From the NCBI GenBank assembly GCA_951813395.1, contig OX638356.1, positions 1,963,340-2,027,339 on the forward strand: DNA of 64,000 nt, given 5' to 3'. The notes under the pieces were generated by a model. That model was given only the letters and a program-made list of their open reading frames with translations. It searched no databases and had not been told where the DNA came from. Position numbers and translations under genes: made by a program. This document shows, piece by piece, positions 35,134-55,434 of the stretch. Position 1 is the first letter of the stretch. Every line of letters begins with the position of its first letter. The stretch comes from Longimicrobiales bacterium (GTDB taxonomy: Bacteria; Gemmatimonadota; Gemmatimonadetes; Longimicrobiales; Gaopeijiaceae).

Positions 35134-36285
35134 ATGCTGACCCCGGAGAACCGCCGGAACCGCCAGAAAACCCGATCCGGTTGTGCCGCCCGATACAGGG
35201 GCGAGCCCTACACTGTCCCTGGCCAGGTCCTCGGTCTCCTCGTAGCGGTAGCCGCGTCGGCTTGCGACGCGCCCGAAACGGGTCCGCCGCCGGCAACATC
35301 CGATCCTCCTGCGGCTGTGGAGTTGGTGGACATGGCCGCGTTCAACGACGCATTCGAAGTGGTCCTCGAGCTCGAGCTGGAGGAAACCGACGAGGCCATG
35401 ACGGTGCAGCCCATGGTCAGTCTCGGCGGAGACGGCTCTTTGCTGCTCGCCGAGCCATTGGAGGGCCAAGTGAATGTCTATGGCACCGACGGCCGGCTGC
35501 GGCGCATCGTGGGTGGCCGAGGAGAGGGCCCGGGAGAGTTTCTGTTCCCTCTACGGGCTCACCGAACCCTCGATGGCGGCGTCGTGGTGGCGGACCTCCA
35601 GCTCGCCCGGATCACGTTCTTCCCGGCCGCCGGCGGGGACCCTGAGATCGTCATGTCCCCGATCCCCACCGTGCAGGGAGCACAGGATCTGGGCGAAGAT
35701 CGGTATCTGCTCACCGGGACGTTGCAGCCCGGGGATGCACCCGATCTTCTACACATCTGGAGCCGCCGCTCCGGCGACATCGAACGCAGTTTTCTGCCCA
35801 TGGGTGTGCCCGAGGAATCCCTCGGCCATGCACTCTCGTTTCAGGGTGCCTCCGCGACGTTGGAGGCGGACACGATCTGGGCCGTCTGGGCTCTGTCGGA
35901 CACCCTCTACAAGTTCAACCGCCGAGGGGACCGACTGGGACAGATCCCTCTGCCGATGGTGAGGCCCATGGGCACCCTGCCCGGGGCGGGTGAGAGCGTA
36001 CCCGATGCGAACGCCGACGCTGGCGCGCTCGACCGGTTCACCCAGTTGTTCGGTGTGTCGGTGCTCCACGACGGCAACCTGGTGGTAACGTCCATGCAGT
36101 CGCGGGGCACGGATGCGGTCTGGGATGTCCTGATCCTCGACCGCGATGGGCGGCAGTTGCTGGGCGCGCCCAATATGCCGCAGCTGTTGGCGGTGGAGCA
36201 GGATCTGTTCTACTTCGATGATCCCGCATCGGTCCTGCCGAACCGGTGGCTTGTCGCGCGTTGGAAGGGTGATCCGCAGCCATGA
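35134..36285 (+). CDS. Beta-propeller lipoprotein (6-bladed/NHL-like)
   Basis: Encodes 383 residues from ATG 35134, with a strong ribosome-binding site (GGAAGGAG). After a basic N terminus of about 28 residues comes a short hydrophobic run and a lipobox 'VAVAASAC' with Cys44, so it is probably a lipoprotein. The mature part shows propeller-blade repeats: 'GGRGEGPGEFLFPLRAHR' followed by 'DGGVVVADLQLARITFF', then 'GTLQPGD', 'ALSDTLYKFNRRGDRLG' and 'VWDVLILDRDGRQLLG'. Such propellers in Bacteroidota and Gemmatimonadota-like genomes often accompany small secreted peptides. The next gene overlaps by 4 bases (ATGA). Confidence 0.8.
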   Translation: MLTPENRRNRQKTRSGCAARYRGEPYTVPGQVLGLLVAVAASACDAPETGPPPATSDPPAAVELVDMAAFNDAFEVVLELELEETDEAMTVQPMVSLGGDGSLLLAEPLEGQVNVYGTDGRLRRIVGGRGEGPGEFLFPLRAHRTLDGGVVVADLQLARITFFPAAGGDPEIVMSPIPTVQGAQDLGEDRYLLTGTLQPGDAPDLLHIWSRRSGDIERSFLPMGVPEESLGHALSFQGASATLEADTIWAVWALSDTLYKFNRRGDRLGQIPLPMVRPMGTLPGAGESVPDANADAGALDRFTQLFGVSVLHDGNLVVTSMQSRGTDAVWDVLILDRDGRQLLGAPNMPQLLAVEQDLFYFDDPASVLPNRWLVARWKGDPQP

Positions 36286-36886: not shown

Positions 36887-37132
36887 ATGAAGAGAAGCAG
36901 GAAGCATTTTGGGCGGCGCGCCTGGTTGATGCGCGCCGCGGTATTGAGCGCGGCGGTCGCGTTTTCCGCGGGCGCACCGGTGACGGGAGTGCCGGCAACG
37001 CCCGTGGGGGCCGGGGTAGAGGCAAGCGGCGAGGAGATACGCGAACGCGTACTCAGATTCGGGAGGTTTCGCCTCTGCTGGACATCCTGCCCGGGGTATG
37101 GCTGGTGTTGCTACGACAACCCTCACGTCTAG
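36887..37132 (+). CDS. Small secreted Cys-rich peptide 1
   Basis: Encodes 81 residues. AAGGAG lies seven bases before ATG 36887. A basic start 'MKRSRKHFGRRAW' is followed by a hydrophobic segment (about residues 13-30), consistent with a signal peptide. A Pro/Val/Gly/Ala linker and an acidic patch follow. The last 20 residues contain four Cys: 64, 68, 74 and 75, pattern C-x3-C-x5-CC, preceded by an aromatic/Arg run 'RFGRFRL'. It matches the organisation of peptides 2 and 3 although overall identity is low. Function unknown. Confidence 0.75.
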   Translation: MKRSRKHFGRRAWLMRAAVLSAAVAFSAGAPVTGVPATPVGAGVEASGEEIRERVLRFGRFRLCWTSCPGYGWCCYDNPHV

Positions 37133-37247
37133 TGAGCGGTCCGCTGATCCGATGCGTTCCCGGGAGTGTTGAGATGCGCGCGATTCCGACGGTCTCGAAA
37201 CCCCGGGGCCTGCATCCATAGGCATTCAGATCCTAAGGAGAGAAGAA

Positions 37248-37499
37248 ATGAAACGAGTATTCCGCAGAGTTGCGGCTCGTGCGTGGAGCGTGCGCACGGG
37301 TGTGAAGGTGTTGAGTCTGGCGGTAGCGCTCACCGCATTCTGGCCGGTGCTTCCGGACGGCGATGTCCCGGTCGGTACGGCAGTAAGCGCTCAGTCGCGG
37401 GGGCACAAGCTGGTCATCCGGTTTTGGTTGTGGAAGATATGCACCTCCTACGCATGTCATTCCGATGCCCCGGACTGTTGCGGTCCCGTCAAGTTCTGA
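37248..37499 (+). CDS. Small secreted Cys-rich peptide 2
   Basis: Encodes 83 residues. AAGGAG is seven bases before ATG 37248, as in peptide 1. It starts 'MKRVFRRVAARAW', has a hydrophobic segment (about residues 19-34) and a likely signal peptidase site after 'TAVSA'. The tail begins with an aromatic run 'VIRFWLWKI' and has Cys65, 70, 77 and 78, pattern C-x4-C-x6-CC. The start and tail resemble peptide 1, so the two are probably diverged paralogues. Function unknown. Confidence 0.75.
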   Translation: MKRVFRRVAARAWSVRTGVKVLSLAVALTAFWPVLPDGDVPVGTAVSAQSRGHKLVIRFWLWKICTSYACHSDAPDCCGPVKF

Positions 37500-37540
37500 G
37501 CACGACACAAACCGCGGGGTTTCCCGCAGAGAGGTTGAAA

Positions 37541-37789
37541 ATGCAAGGCAAGAAGATGAAGCGCCTGGGGACCACTGCGGCCAGGAGCGCGAAGATCCTC
37601 GCGGTCGCGGCGGCACTGCTGTTGGCGGCTCCCGGCACGGGAGAATCCGCCGCGGCTACTGCGGCGTCAGTCGATGGCGATCGTTGGGAGGTGCGGATGT
37701 GGACCTGGGTGCTGTGTCTGCCGATGCCCTGTCCGGTCGGCTTGTCCAACTGTTGCGACCTGTTCGCGCCGCCTGGTCCGGTGATGTGA
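37541..37789 (+). CDS. Small secreted Cys-rich peptide 3
   Basis: Encodes 82 residues from ATG 37541 (AGAGAGG upstream); ATG 37556 would give the 'MKR' start seen in the other two. A basic N terminus and an Ala/Leu-rich segment (about residues 17-31) indicate a signal peptide, with a likely cut near 'AATAAS'. The tail has the aromatic run 'EVRMWTWVL' and Cys59, 64, 71 and 72, pattern C-x4-C-x6-CC, the same spacing as peptide 2. It is the last gene before a strong hairpin. Function unknown. Confidence 0.75.
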   Translation: MQGKKMKRLGTTAARSAKILAVAAALLLAAPGTGESAAATAASVDGDRWEVRMWTWVLCLPMPCPVGLSNCCDLFAPPGPVM

Positions 37790-37832: not shown

Positions 37833-37873
37833 GGCAGCGGCGGGCTCCTCACCGCGAGTAGCCCGCCGCTGCC
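37833..37873 (+). terminator. Strong hairpin ending the Cys-rich peptide locus
   Basis: GGCAGCGGCGGGCT (37833-37846) and AGCCCGCCGCTGCC (37860-37873) form a perfect 14-bp stem with a 13-base loop. It stands between the last peptide gene and the convergent bshB1. No T-run follows. It probably ends transcription from the peptide side and perhaps from both sides. Confidence 0.7.
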
Positions 37874-37955: not shown

Positions 37956-38681
37956 TCAGAAGGTGCCGACCCCGAGGTCTCCCAGCGTCTCCGCCTCCAC
38001 GGTCTCCTCGGTCCAGAAGATTTCGGCGTAGCCGCGACGGATCAGCGACCCGTAAGCGGCGTGCACGCTTCGAATCTGGGCGAACAGGGGACGGCCGCCG
38101 GCCGGGAACACCTCGCCAATCCCGCTCTTGCCTTCAAACTGCGTGTTGTAGGCCGACAGCGCCTCGATCTTGCGGTCCATCTGATCCGTAATGTCCACGG
38201 CGAACGTCGGCTTGACCGGGTCCTCGCGGAACGACAGGGCCTGGACGACCTTTTCCGGACGGTGCGGCTTGCCCTTGACAGGCAGGTTTCGCAACCCTGA
38301 CAGGAAGGAGGCATCTCGGGCGAGTTCCGCCGCAGCACGATGATCGGGGTGACGGCCCCGGGTCCAGTGAGTCACGATGACCCGAGGCCGCAGGGCACGG
38401 ATCAATGCTGCGACCACGTGCCTGGAGTGCAGGTCGTTGCATAGCGCGGCGTCTGGCAGGCCTGCGCAGCGGCGCACCGCAAGACCCATGATCCCGGCGG
38501 CCGCAGCTGCCTCGGCGGCACGGGATTCCCGGGTGCCGCTCGAGCCCATTTCACCGGCGGTCAGGTCGAGGACGCCCGTCCGTTGTCCGGCGTCCGCGGA
38601 CTTGATCAGCGATCCCCCGCAGAAGATCTCGGCGTCATCCGGATGCGCCATGACCGCGAGGAGGTCAAGCGGCGCGCTCAC
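37956..38681 (-). CDS. bshB1: Bacillithiol biosynthesis deacetylase BshB1-like (PIG-L family)
   Basis: Encodes 241 residues from GTG 38681 on the minus strand; the GTGA overlaps the stop of the upstream permease gene. The zinc-binding motif 'AHPDDAEIFCGG' is near the N terminus and 'RGRHPDHRAA' further on. The length and the C-terminal 'AEIFWTEETVEAETLGDL' fit BshB1, which removes acetyl from GlcNAc-malate to make the bacillithiol precursor. A role on another acetylated sugar is possible. bshA and bshC are not in the window. Confidence 0.85.
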   Translation of the reverse strand: MSAPLDLLAVMAHPDDAEIFCGGSLIKSADAGQRTGVLDLTAGEMGSSGTRESRAAEAAAAAGIMGLAVRRCAGLPDAALCNDLHSRHVVAALIRALRPRVIVTHWTRGRHPDHRAAAELARDASFLSGLRNLPVKGKPHRPEKVVQALSFREDPVKPTFAVDITDQMDRKIEALSAYNTQFEGKSGIGEVFPAGGRPLFAQIRSVHAAYGSLIRRGYAEIFWTEETVEAETLGDLGVGTF

Positions 38682-39994
38682 TCGTACCTGAGTGCGTCGA
38701 CGGGGTCCAGCTTGGAGGCCCGCAGAGCCGGGAGCAATCCGAAGAGAATCCCGGTGAGGGCGGCCACGGAGAGCGCGGCGAATACGGACCAGATCGGGAT
38801 GCGGGCGGGCAGGGGTGTCAATGCGGCGAGCAGCTCGGACGCTCCCCATCCCACCAGGAGCCCGGCGGCACCGCCGGAAGCGGTGAGCAGCGACGCTTCG
38901 ATCAGGAATTGCGACTTGATCTCGCGGCGCGTAGCCCCGATGGCCTTGCGGATGCCGATCTCGCGTGTGCGCTCCGTGACGGAAATCAGCATGATTCCGA
39001 CCACCCCGATCCCCCCCACGAGCATGCCGATCGACGAAAGCCCCACCATCACAATGAAGAACACCGCCGTGAACTGGTTGAACAGGTCGACGAGCTGCTC
39101 GCTGCGGATGACGGCGAAGTTGTTGTCGTCGGCGGGTCCGAGGCCGCGCATCGAGCGGAGCGCCGAGACGACCTGGTCTTCGACATCGCTCGATTCGACC
39201 CCGTTCCTGGGAGCGACCTGGACCATCATGAAGTTCCACCGCGTACGGGCCTTCAGCCGCTTGTCCGCCGCGGTGAACGGCACAACTGCGTAGTGGTCCG
39301 CGGCTTCCCCGAACAGGTTGTCGATGGGCTTGAAGACCCCGATGACGGTGAACTGCTCGTTTGCGGCCCTGCGGCCTGCATTCACGCGCACGCGCTTCCC
39401 GATGGGATCCAGTTCTCCAAAGACCGTCTCCGCCAGCCGCTCCGACACCACGACTACGCCTCTTGCCTGCGCGACCTCGGCCGGCGTGAAGTCTCGACCC
39501 GCGACGAAGTCTCCTCCGGTGAACGTGGCCCATCCACTCGACTGGCCGACCCACTGGATGTTCCTGATCCAGTCCGACTCATAGCGCATCGCCGCACTGA
39601 ATTCGTAGCGGGCGGTTGCCTCTGCGACTCCGGGCAGTGTCTGAACCCTGCGTATCTCCCGGTTGTTGATCTCGGGCCGATCCCACCATGGCGGTCTCCC
39701 CGAGCCGTCGGCGGAGATCCGAACCTCGGTGAAATCGAAGGGCATGAGCGTAAAGCTCCCCGGCTCGGATGCCTCGAAAACCTCCATGACTTCGCTGCGG
39801 ATTCCGCTCACCATCGCGGCCACCGTGACGACGACACCGACCCCGATTCCCACGCCCAACACTGCCAGTGTGGTGCGCATCCAGTTTGCCCGCAGCGCGT
39901 CGAAGGCCACGCGGACGCTCTCGCTCAGGACGTGACTGGGCGCCGCCGACCCTCCCTTCGTTCCACCCGCTCCGTACCCGCCTCTCTGTGTCAT
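38678..39994 (-). CDS. MacB/FtsX-type ABC transporter permease A
   Basis: Encodes 438 residues from ATG 39994; the frame is open upstream but the ATG overlaps the preceding gene stop (ATGA), which fixes it. One N-terminal membrane segment ('TTLAVLGVGIGVGVVVTVA', about 45-65), a large periplasmic domain, then three C-terminal membrane segments with the coupling motif 'ERTREIGIRKAIGATRREI'. It ends 'LDPVDALRYE', the same as its neighbour. Such permeases work as dimers with an ATPase, together with a MacA adaptor and TolC. No ATPase domain is fused or adjacent. Confidence 0.88.
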   Translation of the reverse strand: MTQRGGYGAGGTKGGSAAPSHVLSESVRVAFDALRANWMRTTLAVLGVGIGVGVVVTVAAMVSGIRSEVMEVFEASEPGSFTLMPFDFTEVRISADGSGRPPWWDRPEINNREIRRVQTLPGVAEATARYEFSAAMRYESDWIRNIQWVGQSSGWATFTGGDFVAGRDFTPAEVAQARGVVVVSERLAETVFGELDPIGKRVRVNAGRRAANEQFTVIGVFKPIDNLFGEAADHYAVVPFTAADKRLKARTRWNFMMVQVAPRNGVESSDVEDQVVSALRSMRGLGPADDNNFAVIRSEQLVDLFNQFTAVFFIVMVGLSSIGMLVGGIGVVGIMLISVTERTREIGIRKAIGATRREIKSQFLIEASLLTASGGAAGLLVGWGASELLAALTPLPARIPIWSVFAALSVAALTGILFGLLPALRASKLDPVDALRYE

Positions 39995-41232
39995 TCGTAC
40001 CTCAGCGCGTCGACGGGGTCGAGTCTGGCCGCACGAGAGGCCGGGTAGACACCCGAGGCCACACCCACGCCGACACCGAGCGCGACGCCGAGCGCCATCC
40101 ACTTCGGGGCTACGGCCGCGGGCAACGGCGTCATCGCGCCCAGCAGGATGGTCAGGGCGATTCCGATGCCGACCCCCATCGCGGCACCGACGGCCGAGAG
40201 TGTGGCGCTCTCAATGAGGACCTGGACCAGGACATCGCCGCGACGGGCGCCAATGGCCTTGCGAATACCGATCTCCCTCGTCCTCTCCATCACGGATACC
40301 AGCATGATGTTCATGATCACAATGCCGCCCACAACAAGGGAAATGCCGACCAGGCCGGGCAGGGCCAGGAACAGGACCTGACTGATGTTGTCCCAGAAGG
40401 CCAGGGAGGACTCCGTCGTCTCGGCAGCGAAGTTGTCCAGGTCCGCAGGTCTGAGCCGGCGTCTCAGGCGCATGGCCTCGACCGCCTCCTGATGGATGGG
40501 CAGGACCAGTTCGGGGACATCGGTCTTGATGATGATCTCGTCCACGATGCCGTGCGGGTTGACGAACCTCTGCACCGGCGAGCGTGCCGGAGCGACGGCC
40601 AGGTTGTCGAGGGACACGATCAGAAACGATCCCTGCTCCTCCAGAACTCCCACGACCCGGAAAGGAAATCCGCGAAGCCGCACCGTCCTGCCGATCGGAT
40701 CGAGACCCTCGAAGAGGACCTCGGCGGTTGATTTGCCCAGAACGACTACGGGCGCTCCCTGCTCGGCCTCATGCCTGGTGTACGCGCGGCCGCGTTCCAC
40801 ATTCCAGTTGCGGATCTCGAAGATCTCGGCCGAAGCACCGACGATGCGTACATTCTCGACCTTGAGCCCGGTGTCGGATTCGAGTTCCCCACCGGTGTCC
40901 GACTGTGCCCCGATCGTCGCGGACAGCGTGATCCTGTCGCGAAGGTACTCCAGGTCGTCAAAGGTCAATCTCGGTGCACGGGCCCACGCCCTCCACTGCT
41001 CGGGCGAGGGATCGACCGCCTCCCTGGGCATCCTGCCCACCCGAACCGTGTTCACTCCCATCACCCTCTCGGTGAGCGTGCCGCGGATGTAGCGGTCCGT
41101 TCCTTCCACGATGCTCACCACGAGGATGAGGAACATCACCCCTACGATCACACCCAGCAGGGTGAAGAAGCTCTTGAGCTTCTGGGTGCGGATTTGCTCC
41201 CACGCCAGGCGGATGCCCTCGAGGAACTGCAT
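39991..41232 (-). CDS. MacB/FtsX-type ABC transporter permease B
   Basis: Encodes 413 residues on the minus strand. Same architecture as permease A: N-terminal segment ('FFTLLGVIVGVMFLILVVS', about 21-40), periplasmic domain with 'VVVLGKSTAEVLFEGLDPIG' (as LGKSTAEVLFEG), and a C-terminal FtsX part with 'ERTREIGIRKAIGARRGDV' and 'ARLDPVDALRYE'. The pair probably forms a heterodimer, or each a homodimer. It stands between the adaptor gene and permease A in one operon with the TolC gene. Confidence 0.88.
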   Translation of the reverse strand: MQFLEGIRLAWEQIRTQKLKSFFTLLGVIVGVMFLILVVSIVEGTDRYIRGTLTERVMGVNTVRVGRMPREAVDPSPEQWRAWARAPRLTFDDLEYLRDRITLSATIGAQSDTGGELESDTGLKVENVRIVGASAEIFEIRNWNVERGRAYTRHEAEQGAPVVVLGKSTAEVLFEGLDPIGRTVRLRGFPFRVVGVLEEQGSFLIVSLDNLAVAPARSPVQRFVNPHGIVDEIIIKTDVPELVLPIHQEAVEAMRLRRRLRPADLDNFAAETTESSLAFWDNISQVLFLALPGLVGISLVVGGIVIMNIMLVSVMERTREIGIRKAIGARRGDVLVQVLIESATLSAVGAAMGVGIGIALTILLGAMTPLPAAVAPKWMALGVALGVGVGVASGVYPASRAARLDPVDALRYE

Positions 41233-41264
41233 TCAGACTACCCGGACGCCGTGAAGTGTCACGG

Positions 41265-42539
41265 TCAGCCCTGCCCGTCCTGCGCGTCGTCCGAGACATC
41301 GCTCTCGTCCGCCCGGACCTGGTCTCCGTTCTCCAGCGTTCGGACCACCTGATACGGCCCGCTGACGACCGTGTCTCCAAGCGACAGTCCGGAGAGCACC
41401 TCAAAATATTCCTGGCCCGCGATGCCGACCGTGACCGGGGTGAACTCGACCAGGCCACCGCGAACCACAAACACTCCTTCAATCGGATCGGGCACCTCGG
41501 CGGCTGAACGGTTGTCCCCATTCGCGTCGTCGTCTTCGGATTCCGGTTCGCGCAAGGTGAGCGCAATGATCGGAATGCTCAGTTGATCTGCACGCGTCTC
41601 GGTGATCAGTTCGGCGGTGGCCGACAGATCGGGGCGAAGCTCGACCTCGGGATTGTCGAGCGTCACGACCACCTCGAAGTCGATTGTCGGGGTCTGCCCT
41701 GTACCCGCAGCCTGTGACGGTGGACGAATCGCGCTGTTCCCGATCTCGGTGACAACCCCCGGGAAATCCATCTCCGGAAAGGCGTCCAGTTCGACCGTCG
41801 CGTTATCGCCCAACGCGATTTCCGGCACGTCGGTCTCGTCCACTTCGAGCACGACCTCCATGACCGACAGGTCCGACACCGTCAGCACCAGGCTGCCCGG
41901 GTTGTTCATGGTGCCCACGATTACAGTCTCGCCCTCTTCGACGTTCAGACGGGTAACCCGGCCCGCCATGGGTGCCGAGATGATGGTCTTGGCCAACTGG
42001 TCGCGCGCTTCCTCGAGGGCGGCCCCGGCCTGGTTGACTCCGAATTCCGAAGACTCGAGCAGGGATCGCTGAACTTCCAGGTCGGTCTGCGCGTTGTCGA
42101 CCTCCTGGCGGCTCACCAGCAGCGGTTCGCGAGCGTGCAGTGAATCCAGCCGCTCCGCTTCCCTCTGTGCCCGCAGGTAGTTGGCGCGGGCTTGCGCCAC
42201 CTGCGCTTCCGACTGACTGAGATTCGCCCGGCTCCGGTTGACCGCCGCCTGGTAGCGGGTGCGGTCCAGACGCAGCAGTACCTGCCCCTGCTCCACGTCC
42301 TCGCCCTCGTCGACCAGCAGCTCCGCCACCCGGGCGGAGATGTCCGAGCTGATATCCACCTTTCGGCGCGCGCGGACGTTGCCGCTCGCCGTGACCGTCG
42401 CGACCAGATCGCGCTTGTCGACGGCTTCGATCCGGACCTCGATTCCCTGTTGGCGCCGGCCGTTCATGCTCAGGCCCGCGGCCGAGACGAGCAGGATCAC
42501 GATGCCGATCCCGATGATCACCCTGGTTCTGGTTCGCAT
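41265..42539 (-). CDS. Periplasmic adaptor subunit (MacA/HlyD-like)
   Basis: Encodes 424 residues. An N-terminal membrane anchor ('VIIGIGIVILLVSAAGL') is followed by the split biotinyl-lipoyl-like domain ('SDISARVAELLVDEGEDVEQ' in part, and 'APMAGRVTRLNVEEGETV'), a coiled-coil hairpin (about residues 95-180, with heptad patterns), then beta-barrel and membrane-proximal domains. An acidic linker 'EPESEDDDANGDN' is unusual. It links the inner-membrane permeases to TolC in the same operon. The substrate is unknown. Confidence 0.9.
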   Translation of the reverse strand: MRTRTRVIIGIGIVILLVSAAGLSMNGRRQQGIEVRIEAVDKRDLVATVTASGNVRARRKVDISSDISARVAELLVDEGEDVEQGQVLLRLDRTRYQAAVNRSRANLSQSEAQVAQARANYLRAQREAERLDSLHAREPLLVSRQEVDNAQTDLEVQRSLLESSEFGVNQAGAALEEARDQLAKTIISAPMAGRVTRLNVEEGETVIVGTMNNPGSLVLTVSDLSVMEVVLEVDETDVPEIALGDNATVELDAFPEMDFPGVVTEIGNSAIRPPSQAAGTGQTPTIDFEVVVTLDNPEVELRPDLSATAELITETRADQLSIPIIALTLREPESEDDDANGDNRSAAEVPDPIEGVFVVRGGLVEFTPVTVGIAGQEYFEVLSGLSLGDTVVSGPYQVVRTLENGDQVRADESDVSDDAQDGQG

Positions 42540-42546
42540 AACGTCC

Positions 42547-44091
42547 CTATGGATTCCTCAGAGGCATGCCGACGACCGCTTCGAGGTCGGCGACTGCGTC
42601 ATGATACGTGAATATTGCCACGATACGCTCCCGGTCGGCTCGCGCCTTTACCGTCTCCGCTTCCACCAGGTCGATGAAATTGGAGAACCCCAGGCGGTAC
42701 CGTTCCTGCGCCAGGCGCAGTTGCTCGTCGGCGAGCGCCTGGTTGCGCTCCTCGATCAGGGCACTCTCGTATGCGGCGCGGACCAGTGCGATGCTCGACT
42801 GGATATCCGCGCGCAGCGCCAACTCCTGTTCGCGGATACGGAACCTGTTGTCGTTCAACTGGGCGCGGGCGGTTTCCAGGTCCCGCTGGCGGCCAAGCCC
42901 CTGGAACACCGGGATCGAGACCGTCATACCGACCGAGGGCGGCTGGCGGGTGAAGTTGAACGGGAACGTCTGGTTCTCGGTCCGGATGGCCTCGAGTGCG
43001 GACTCGGGAGTCGCCAACAGGCTGCAGTTCTGGAGCGGCGGGGGGTTCGGCAGGCGTGAAACGAGATCGTTCAGCGTCATGCATTGCTGTATCCTGGCCG
43101 CCCCGGCAGCGATCGCCTGCGCCTCCTGGCCGGCGGTGCTGCTCGCCTGCCGGGTGAAGCCGCTCCAGCCTGCCGACAGGGACACGCTGGGAAAGTAGGA
43201 CGACCGGGCCATGCTCACCCCGTAACGGGCAGCTTCCTCCTGGGCACGCATCGCCTGAAGATCCGGATTGTTGCCGACCGCCGCCTGATAGAGCTGCCCT
43301 GACGTCCACTCGGGTTCAGTCACCGCAAAGGTCGTTGCCAGCGTCGGCTGGGCGTCGAGGTCCACGCCGATCTGTTGAAGCAGCCGTATCCGGGAGGTCT
43401 CGACGCCGGTGCGCGCCTGAAGCAGGGTGATCTCCGCGCGCCCCACGTTCACTTCCGCCTGTCTGACATCGATGGCGTTGCCTGATCCCACCTCCTGGCG
43501 TCCCTGGGCCAGCCGCAGATTGATTCGAGCCCGTTCGAGTTCCTGTTCCGCAAGCGTCAGCGCCTCACCCTGGCGCAGCACTTCGAGGTAGGCCCTCGTA
43601 ACGTTGAGGCGCAGGGCCGCTTCGGTGCTATGAATCTGCGCGCGCGTGGCGTCTCGGGACCGGCGGGCCTGGCCCGGGGCCATCAGCGTGCGGCCGTTCA
43701 TCGAGAAACTCAGTCCGGCACTGTAGGAACTGAGCAGGAACGACGGCTGGTCCTGAAAACCCAGCTGTTCGGCGGTGATGCTCCCGAACCGCTGTTCCCC
43801 CGCACCCTGCCACTGCACGGAGGAATTGATCGAGGCCGAGGGCAGCCAGGATCCATACGCCGAATTCAGATTCCAGTCGGCGACCTGCAGGTCGTTCCTC
43901 GCCGCCTGCACACCCGGGTTGTTGCGGAGCGCCGCGCGGAGCGCTTCCTCCAGGGTCAGCGACGCGGGAAGCCGCTCCTGCGCGTCCGACTGCGGGGCGG
44001 CCACGACACCGATCACGAGAGCAACGAGAACCCACGCCACCCGTCCGGGCCGGAACACTCTTCGCTTGTCCACCACGATCTCCTTCCTCAT
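42547..44091 (-). CDS. TolC-family outer membrane efflux protein
   Basis: Encodes 514 residues from ATG 44091; a GTG at 44076 preceded by AGGAAGGAG is an alternative start. A signal peptide (ending near 'SDAQE') is followed by two repeated outer membrane factor halves rich in long helices, starting 'LTLEEALRAALRNNPGVQAA' (as LEEALRAALRNNP) and later 'LRLAQERYRLGFSNFIDLVE' (as YRLGFSNFIDL). An insertion of about 50 residues between the halves contains two Cys, possibly a disulfide. It forms the exit duct for the MacA-like system downstream. Confidence 0.9.
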   Translation of the reverse strand: MRKEIVVDKRRVFRPGRVAWVLVALVIGVVAAPQSDAQERLPASLTLEEALRAALRNNPGVQAARNDLQVADWNLNSAYGSWLPSASINSSVQWQGAGEQRFGSITAEQLGFQDQPSFLLSSYSAGLSFSMNGRTLMAPGQARRSRDATRAQIHSTEAALRLNVTRAYLEVLRQGEALTLAEQELERARINLRLAQGRQEVGSGNAIDVRQAEVNVGRAEITLLQARTGVETSRIRLLQQIGVDLDAQPTLATTFAVTEPEWTSGQLYQAAVGNNPDLQAMRAQEEAARYGVSMARSSYFPSVSLSAGWSGFTRQASSTAGQEAQAIAAGAARIQQCMTLNDLVSRLPNPPPLQNCSLLATPESALEAIRTENQTFPFNFTRQPPSVGMTVSIPVFQGLGRQRDLETARAQLNDNRFRIREQELALRADIQSSIALVRAAYESALIEERNQALADEQLRLAQERYRLGFSNFIDLVEAETVKARADRERIVAIFTYHDAVADLEAVVGMPLRNP

Positions 44092-54171: not shown

Positions 54172-55434
54172 ATGATCGTGACACTTCGCACCGAACGAAT
54201 CCGGACGCTCGACCAGATGCGCGCCTTCGTGGAAGGCAACGAATCTGCGGACTTCCAGATCACCGACCGCACTTCCGCCTACGTCTTCGTCCGCCGCACG
54301 CTGGTCCGCTTCGAGTACCACGGCCTCGGGAAGCCCGACAAGGGGCTGGTGAAGCGGTTCCTTGAGAAGGCGACGGGCATTTCCCGCGCCCAGGTCACCC
54401 GCCTGATCCGACAGCACCGCCGGACGGGCCACATCCGCGACCACCGCAACAAGCCCCCGGCCAACGCCTTCCGGCGGCGCTACACGCCCCACGACGCCGC
54501 TCTGCTCGCCGAGGTCGACGAAGCCTTCGGCCAGCCCTCCGGACCCGCCACCAAGGTGGTCCTGCAACGCATGCACGAGGTCTACGGCGACGGACGCTTC
54601 GCACGCCTCGCCTCGATCTCCAACGGCCACATCTACAACCTCCGCAAGACCCGCGCGTACCGGACCGGCCGCCTCACCTTCCGTAAGACCCGGTCCACTC
54701 CCATCGCCATCGGGATCCGCCGCAAGCCGCGGCCGGATGGCAAACCCGGCCATCTCCGCGTCGACACCGTCCACCTCGGCGACCGCGACGACCGGAAGGG
54801 CATCTATCTCATCAACGTCGTCGACGAAGTCACGCAGTTCCAACACCTTGGAGCCGTGCCGCGCATCACCCAGCACTTCCTCGTCCCGCGCCTCGAAGCC
54901 CTGCTGGCCGCCTTCCCCTTCACCGTCCACGCCTTCCATGCGGACAACGGCAGCGAATACGTCAACGGCCGGGTGGCCGCGCTGCTCAACAAGCTCCACG
55001 TCGGCGTCTTCACCAAGTCCCGGCCCCGCCATCCCAACGACAACGCGCTGGTCGAGACCAAGAACGGAGCCGTCGTCCGCAAGTGGCTCGGCCACATCCA
55101 CGTCCCCCACGCCCTCGTCCCCCAGGTCAACGCCTTCCTCCACGACCACCTCTGCCCCTTCCTCAACTTCCACCGGCCCTGCCTCTTCCCCACCGAAATC
55201 ACCAGCCCCACCGGCCGAGTCAAGCGGCGCTACCGGCAACAGGACGTGACCACGCCCCACGAGCGCTTCAAGGCCCTGCCCGGCGCCGAAGCCTTCCTCC
55301 GGCCCGGTGTCACCCTCGGTGCCCTCGACCAACTCGCCGCCGCAACCACCGACCTCGACGCCGCCCAAGCCGTCCAGCGCTCCCGCGACGAACTCTTCCG
55401 CGCCATCGGCCAGTCCAGCAACTCCGCCGCGTGA
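54172..55434 (+). CDS. DDE (rve-type) transposase, copy 2
   Basis: Encodes 420 residues, the same protein as at 15736-16998. D-D-E residues are Asp198, Asp258 and Glu295. The start ATG 54172 is followed by 'IVTLRTERIRTL'; the base just before the start codon differs between copies. Both ends of this element are intact, so it is the better candidate for an active copy. IS481-like by general appearance; family not confirmed. Confidence 0.93.
   Translation: MIVTLRTERIRTLDQMRAFVEGNESADFQITDRTSAYVFVRRTLVRFEYHGLGKPDKGLVKRFLEKATGISRAQVTRLIRQHRRTGHIRDHRNKPPANAFRRRYTPHDAALLAEVDEAFGQPSGPATKVVLQRMHEVYGDGRFARLASISNGHIYNLRKTRAYRTGRLTFRKTRSTPIAIGIRRKPRPDGKPGHLRVDTVHLGDRDDRKGIYLINVVDEVTQFQHLGAVPRITQHFLVPRLEALLAAFPFTVHAFHADNGSEYVNGRVAALLNKLHVGVFTKSRPRHPNDNALVETKNGAVVRKWLGHIHVPHALVPQVNAFLHDHLCPFLNFHRPCLFPTEITSPTGRVKRRYRQQDVTTPHERFKALPGAEAFLRPGVTLGALDQLAAATTDLDAAQAVQRSRDELFRAIGQSSNSAA

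Follow-up and report, generated by a model that had tools for sequence, protein, structure and literature searches.

A cassette of five genes, encoding a propeller lipoprotein, a thioredoxin-like lipoprotein and three small exported peptides (alpha, beta and gamma), was found in the window, i.e., the whole 64,000-nucleotide stretch of DNA that was analysed (Table 1). The original prediction had concerned the peptide genes alone. These are real, but they make up only half of the object, the rest of which consists of the two lipoprotein genes upstream. Three tandem peptide genes of the lengths given in Table 1, each with a good ribosome-binding site, had been described, and this description holds: GGAG, AAGGAG and GAGAGG are located 5' of the alpha, beta and gamma starts, respectively. 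The propeller and thioredoxin-like genes share 4 nt (ATGA), the gaps that follow are 38 nt (thioredoxin-like gene to alpha), 115 nt (alpha to beta) and 41 nt (beta to gamma), and the five genes look like a single predicted operon. The hairpin 3' of gamma is likely the transcript end; it has no T-run and was not called a terminator by the consensus scan. A consensus scan for sigma-70 promoters returned none, and no RNA element was matched in Rfam.

Table 1. Position of the cassette genes and adjacent features in the window.
Feature	Coordinates	Strand	Basis
Six-bladed beta-propeller lipoprotein, 383 aa, lipobox AASA↓C	35134..36285	+	
Thioredoxin-like lipoprotein, 188 aa, lipobox MAAG↓C, CxxC = C71-L-G-C74	36282..36848	+	
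Peptide alpha, exported, 81 aa, C-x3-C-x5-CC	36887..37132	+	
Peptide beta, exported, 83 aa, C-x4-C-x6-CC	37248..37499	+	
Peptide gamma, exported, 82 aa, C-x4-C-x6-CC	37541..37789	+	
GC-rich hairpin, strong, 14 bp + 3 bp stem, 3' of gamma	37833..37873	+	Computed fold
Two MacB-type permeases, HlyD-type adaptor, TolC-type outer-membrane protein	38678..44076	-	Pfam MacB_PCD/FtsX, HlyD, OEP

The four-cysteine tail that had been noted (C-x3/4-C-x5/6-CC) is present in all three peptides, with the sequences CWTSCPGYGWCC (alpha), CTSYACHSDAPDCC (beta) and CLPMPCPVGLSNCC (gamma). When open reading frames of 60–130 residues carrying C-x3/4-C-x4-6-CC near their end were counted, exactly three, i.e., alpha, beta and gamma, were found in the window, and none was found in 60 Markov-resampled shuffles of the window or in a further 362 kb of this genome. 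All three peptides begin with a basic N terminus and contain a hydrophobic stretch. The signal-like MKR start that had been proposed is thus right as to the basic charge of all three, but gamma begins MQGKKMKR. In beta, an AxA motif precedes the tail (AVSA↓Q). The three peptides are diverged paralogues, as had been supposed, sharing 24–29% identity with one another, and each has orthologues in three other species at an identity above that between the paralogues.

Cassettes were searched for by the thioredoxin-like protein alone, so an association with peptides was not built into the search. About 30 cassettes with a propeller and a thioredoxin-like gene were found in Gemmatimonadota, each with one to three CC-tail peptide ORFs adjoining the gene pair, downstream in most cassettes and upstream in some. 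Of the 23 genomes of the genus, 15 carry a cassette; outside the genus, cassettes occur in a few more lineages of Longimicrobiales and in one additional order within the class (21/154 genomes in the order search; 21/395 in the phylum sample). No relatives were found on plasmids by tblastn with both lipoproteins. Three loci with weak thioredoxin matches and no propeller (L057, L058 and L059) have no CC-tail peptide. In the cassette's own genome (4.09 Mb, single contig), where PF17170 has 52 matches, 71 other propeller ORFs in 32 regions yielded, under the same filters, one plausible Cys-rich secreted neighbour. The peptide is thus tied to the propeller-thioredoxin subfamily and not to PF17170 generally; the idea that PF17170 propellers generally accompany Cys-rich peptides was rejected for this genome. 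The cassette seems to be undescribed, as a literature search of incomplete coverage returned nothing on it.

Homologues of the peptides, whose existence the original prediction had left to a search, occur in other species and in other Gemmatimonadota cassettes. Consistent with the earlier statement that no named family was known for them, the peptides have no match in Pfam, NCBIfam, PDB sequences, PHROGs or PADLOC. A defence or phage origin was rejected, given that neither PADLOC nor PHROGs was matched. Among 45 peptides, the tail contains four cysteines in 40, six in three and five in two. The first spacing is 3–4 residues and the second mostly 4–6 (range x4-9), and the tail of four-Cys peptides always ends in CC. 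In an alignment of 34 peptides, only three cysteines (Cys64, Cys74 and Cys75 of alpha) are invariant besides the start Met. Most peptides start with a positive charge, followed by a hydrophobic segment and, ahead of the tail, a site of AxA type (e.g., ATAQ, VSAQ, AEAQ, AYAD), which points to export by Sec and signal-peptide cleavage. The peptide structure was also predicted, as had been suggested, but the AlphaFold model reached a pLDDT of only 56.5, with a signal helix and a weak hairpin, and therefore the disulphide pairing cannot be read from it. The six-Cys peptides, at L054, L055 and L137 (C-x2-CC...CC...C), have a cysteine count suggesting three disulphides.

The propeller is a weak match to PF17170 (E = 0.0027; 17.4 bits, under the 22.9-bit cut-off). 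Fifteen of the 21 members of its family match PF17170 (best E = 5e-7), and the family profile retrieves NHL propellers from PDB. The thioredoxin-like protein has no Pfam match. In its AlphaFold model, most of residues 50–180 have a pLDDT above 90, and structure comparison of this model identified a thioredoxin fold (best match 3gl3, Z = 13.6, rmsd 2.7, 129 residues aligned). The closest folds are thiol-disulphide proteins of the TlpA/ResA/CcmG/Sco type, and SOQ1 (7djk) and NHLRC2 (6gc1) are also among the matches. All aligned proteins from the genus retain the CxxC; its first Cys was lost in three relatives outside the genus, whose peptides still have four cysteines. Thioredoxins have a conserved cis-proline before the fourth strand. 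At the corresponding position, as placed by alignment and model, the window protein has Ala143, and Pro is found in 8 of 19 relatives. Ordinary oxidoreductase activity is therefore not to be assumed for this protein.

The propeller and thioredoxin-like genes overlap or abut in almost every cassette, mostly at distances of -34 to +2 nt. At locus L044 (7615-9264), the two form one uninterrupted ORF of 549 aa, with the propeller first, a single N-terminal lipobox and loss of the signal of the thioredoxin part. This natural fusion is the best single piece of evidence that both lipoproteins work jointly. The gene overlap and the fusion together indicate that the two proteins act together, and their co-function is well supported.

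Taken with the peptides, these findings lead us to a propeller-thioredoxin lipoprotein unit in the envelope, with the co-encoded four-Cys peptides as its clients or ligands, an explanation to which we would give an even chance. The two lipoproteins would form one unit, like a split NHLRC2 or SOQ1. The peptides would be exported by Sec and lose their signal peptide near the AxA site, leaving a mature tail of roughly 30–40 residues whose four cysteines may form two disulphides. The thioredoxin-like partner would act on these bonds by making, shuffling or reducing them, and the peptides are its putative clients; that this lipoprotein handles the disulphides is probable. The tail may dock on the propeller, and the finished peptide would either stay on the envelope or be released from the cell, possibly via the adjacent tripartite pump. 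Our guess is that the system serves signalling or competition at the cell surface. The explanation is favoured by the presence of peptides in all of the roughly 30 cassettes and their rarity beside other propellers of the genome, the overlapping or abutting lipoprotein genes, the L044 fusion, the four tail cysteines in 40/45 peptides, the CxxC retained within the genus, the fold similarity to thiol-disulphide proteins, SOQ1 and NHLRC2, the gain or loss of the cassette as a unit, and, for release, the cassettes embedded among RND permease genes and the STII precedent (both below). Ala143, the CxxC loss in three relatives, the two five-Cys peptides and the poor peptide model count against it, as do the pump genes that stay in cassette-less species and the cassettes distant from any pump.

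The cysteines could instead serve a metal or redox relay, in which the peptides bind metal and the thioredoxin-like protein keeps them reduced. A comparable reducing role in copper delivery is played by TlpA and Sco, near which the fold of the window protein lies, and the vicinal CC motif of the peptides would be in keeping with metal binding. However, spacing within the tail is not constant (x3-4, x4-9), the peptide alignment has no conserved His or Met, the six-Cys versions suggest disulphides, and no metal gene recurs near the cassettes. We thus regard a relay as very improbable.

A further possibility is that the propeller is the large subunit of an envelope enzyme comparable to methylamine dehydrogenase, and that the peptides are its small subunits, with a structural or cofactor role. 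In methylamine dehydrogenase, the thioredoxin-like MauD helps the Cys-rich small subunit to fold, and the same three types of parts, i.e., a propeller, a thioredoxin-like protein and a small Cys-rich exported protein, recur in the cassette. The small subunit of methylamine dehydrogenase has invariant Trp residues for its quinone cofactor; with only cysteines and the start Met invariant, no such Trp is present among the 34 peptides. The one to three divergent peptide copies per cassette also count against this explanation, which we consider unlikely.

The evolution of the cassette bears on a third alternative, namely that the peptides are secreted to act outside the cell, as bacteriocins, toxins or signals between cells, and that the lipoproteins are their maturation and immunity or receptor factors. 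The cassette lies between phosphomannomutase and PIG-L genes, and the arrangement nuoM-nuoN-phosphomannomutase-cassette-PIG-L-MacB-MacB holds throughout the genus. In sister species without the cassette, the distance from phosphomannomutase to PIG-L is 155–710 nt, with nothing recognisable between. On a PIG-L tree, two cassette-less groups are nested beside carriers, and presence or absence of the cassette needs at least three changes. The clean absence at the junction and these repeated gains or losses show that the cassette is accessory, gained and lost whole. Such repeated loss of an accessory module would suit a secreted effector, as would the faster evolution of the thioredoxin-like protein (66–70% identity) and of alpha (62–70% among orthologues in the three other species), against 86–97% for flanking genes, and the pump adjoining the cassette.

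The substitution pattern is less favourable to that alternative. Among orthologues of four closely related species, dN/dS is 0.30–0.71 for the peptides, 0.26–0.48 for the thioredoxin-like protein and 0.18–0.29 for the propeller, and the mature tail of beta is close to neutral (pN/pS = 0.95). The peptides are thus real, coding genes under purifying but loose constraint. Diversifying selection, which had been proposed for them, is unsupported: no gene, in any pair, reaches a dN/dS of 1. Furthermore, orthologues of alpha, beta and gamma are kept in the same order in the three other species, which indicates an old origin of the paralogues rather than an array with fast turnover. No dedicated exporter, immunity or peptidase-exporter gene recurs near the cassettes, so the toxin or bacteriocin role in the original prediction was not established, and Sec alone would take a peptide only to the periplasm of a diderm. 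A secreted effector of this kind therefore appears rather improbable to us.

The MacAB-TolC-type genes adjoin the cassette in the window genus and persist where the cassette is missing; neighbourhood alone thus proves nothing on export. In the Longimicrobiales relatives L053, L056 and L137, the cassette is on the same strand as, and next to or between, RND permease genes. No pump was recognised near eight cassettes (L046, L049, L050, L052, L055, L138, L139 and L140), which makes a pump-free neighbourhood the usual case outside the window genus and the three RND loci, and an obligate link between cassette and tripartite pump was rejected. A precedent is STII, which is exported by Sec, acquires two periplasmic disulphides and leaves through MacAB-TolC; the review that describes it also notes that small disulphide-bonded peptides are common among the peptide substrates of MacB homologues (PMC5985334). 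By analogy, export of the peptides by the pump is plausible as a last step. The cassette peptides resemble STII in a Sec-type signal, four cysteines, putative periplasmic disulphide chemistry and MacB-type genes nearby; unlike STII, they have a dedicated thioredoxin-like partner and a pump that is not tied to the cassette. A fuller version of the favoured explanation, in which the lipoprotein pair matures and presents its own rapidly evolving four-Cys peptides and tripartite pumps release them for cell-cell communication or competition, is put forward tentatively, as a possibility on the doubtful side. Within the pump region, the MacB_PCD/FtsX permeases (38678-41232) lack a nucleotide-binding domain in the same gene.

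In NHLRC2, thioredoxin-like and six-bladed NHL propeller domains form a conserved cleft (PMC6107167), and plant SOQ1 has been suggested to regulate the redox state of a distinct target in the lumen (PMC10173003). The cassette is like both in that a thioredoxin-like domain works with a six-bladed NHL-type propeller. It differs in that NHLRC2 and SOQ1 are single polypeptides, whereas the cassette encodes two lipoproteins, fused in one relative (L044) in reverse order; in its motif, ECLGC in place of CC(I/V)NC; and in its co-encoded four-Cys peptides. The window thioredoxin-like protein shares the fold and CxxC of TlpA/ResA-like thioredoxins but not the cis-proline. The cassette propeller is probably a distant member of the DUF5128/PF17170 group and constitutes a separate subfamily linked to the thioredoxin-like gene and peptides, both of which the genome's remaining PF17170 propellers lack. 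Among known peptides, those of the NVEALA family in Bacteroidota (PF14055) are short and exported, with Cys-rich tails, and are said to lie near six-bladed propellers. The cassette peptides have no NVEALA motif; membership was rejected, with 0/34 peptides matching PF14055 at E ≤ 1 and no match above the cut-off in the genome itself.

Gemmatimonadota are common yet hardly studied, and these exported peptides match no annotated family. The clients of human NHLRC2 and plant SOQ1 are unknown or debated, and the cassette encodes a candidate client in the same cluster. A three-part cassette with an apparently obligate peptide thus offers a testable entry to the function of NHL-type propellers with thioredoxins.

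Several further observations were made. The window also contains a 420-aa ORF resembling a transposase or integrase catalytic protein (54172-55434). A second, diverged cassette is present in the same genome (L050 8346-10194; about 157.3–159.2 kb), with its peptide gene upstream of the propeller and the tail CENACTPGWCC. The uncharacterised PF17170 propellers of this genome (52 matches), many in tandem groups, represent a striking expansion. The cassette at L048/L074 (genome G012), with a large internal deletion in the propeller and a peptide without signal region, looks decayed, although an assembly fault could be the cause. A lone propeller of the cassette subfamily (L073 5944-7023), without lipobox, thioredoxin-like gene or peptide, sits beside two ORFs, one helix-turn-helix/peptidase-like and the other carrying a P-loop motif. 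Unrelated small Cys-rich secreted ORFs were observed upstream of other propellers (L177 12767-12994 and L146 9840-10070, the latter adjoining a PF15869 TolB_like propeller) and are possible further propeller-peptide pairs.
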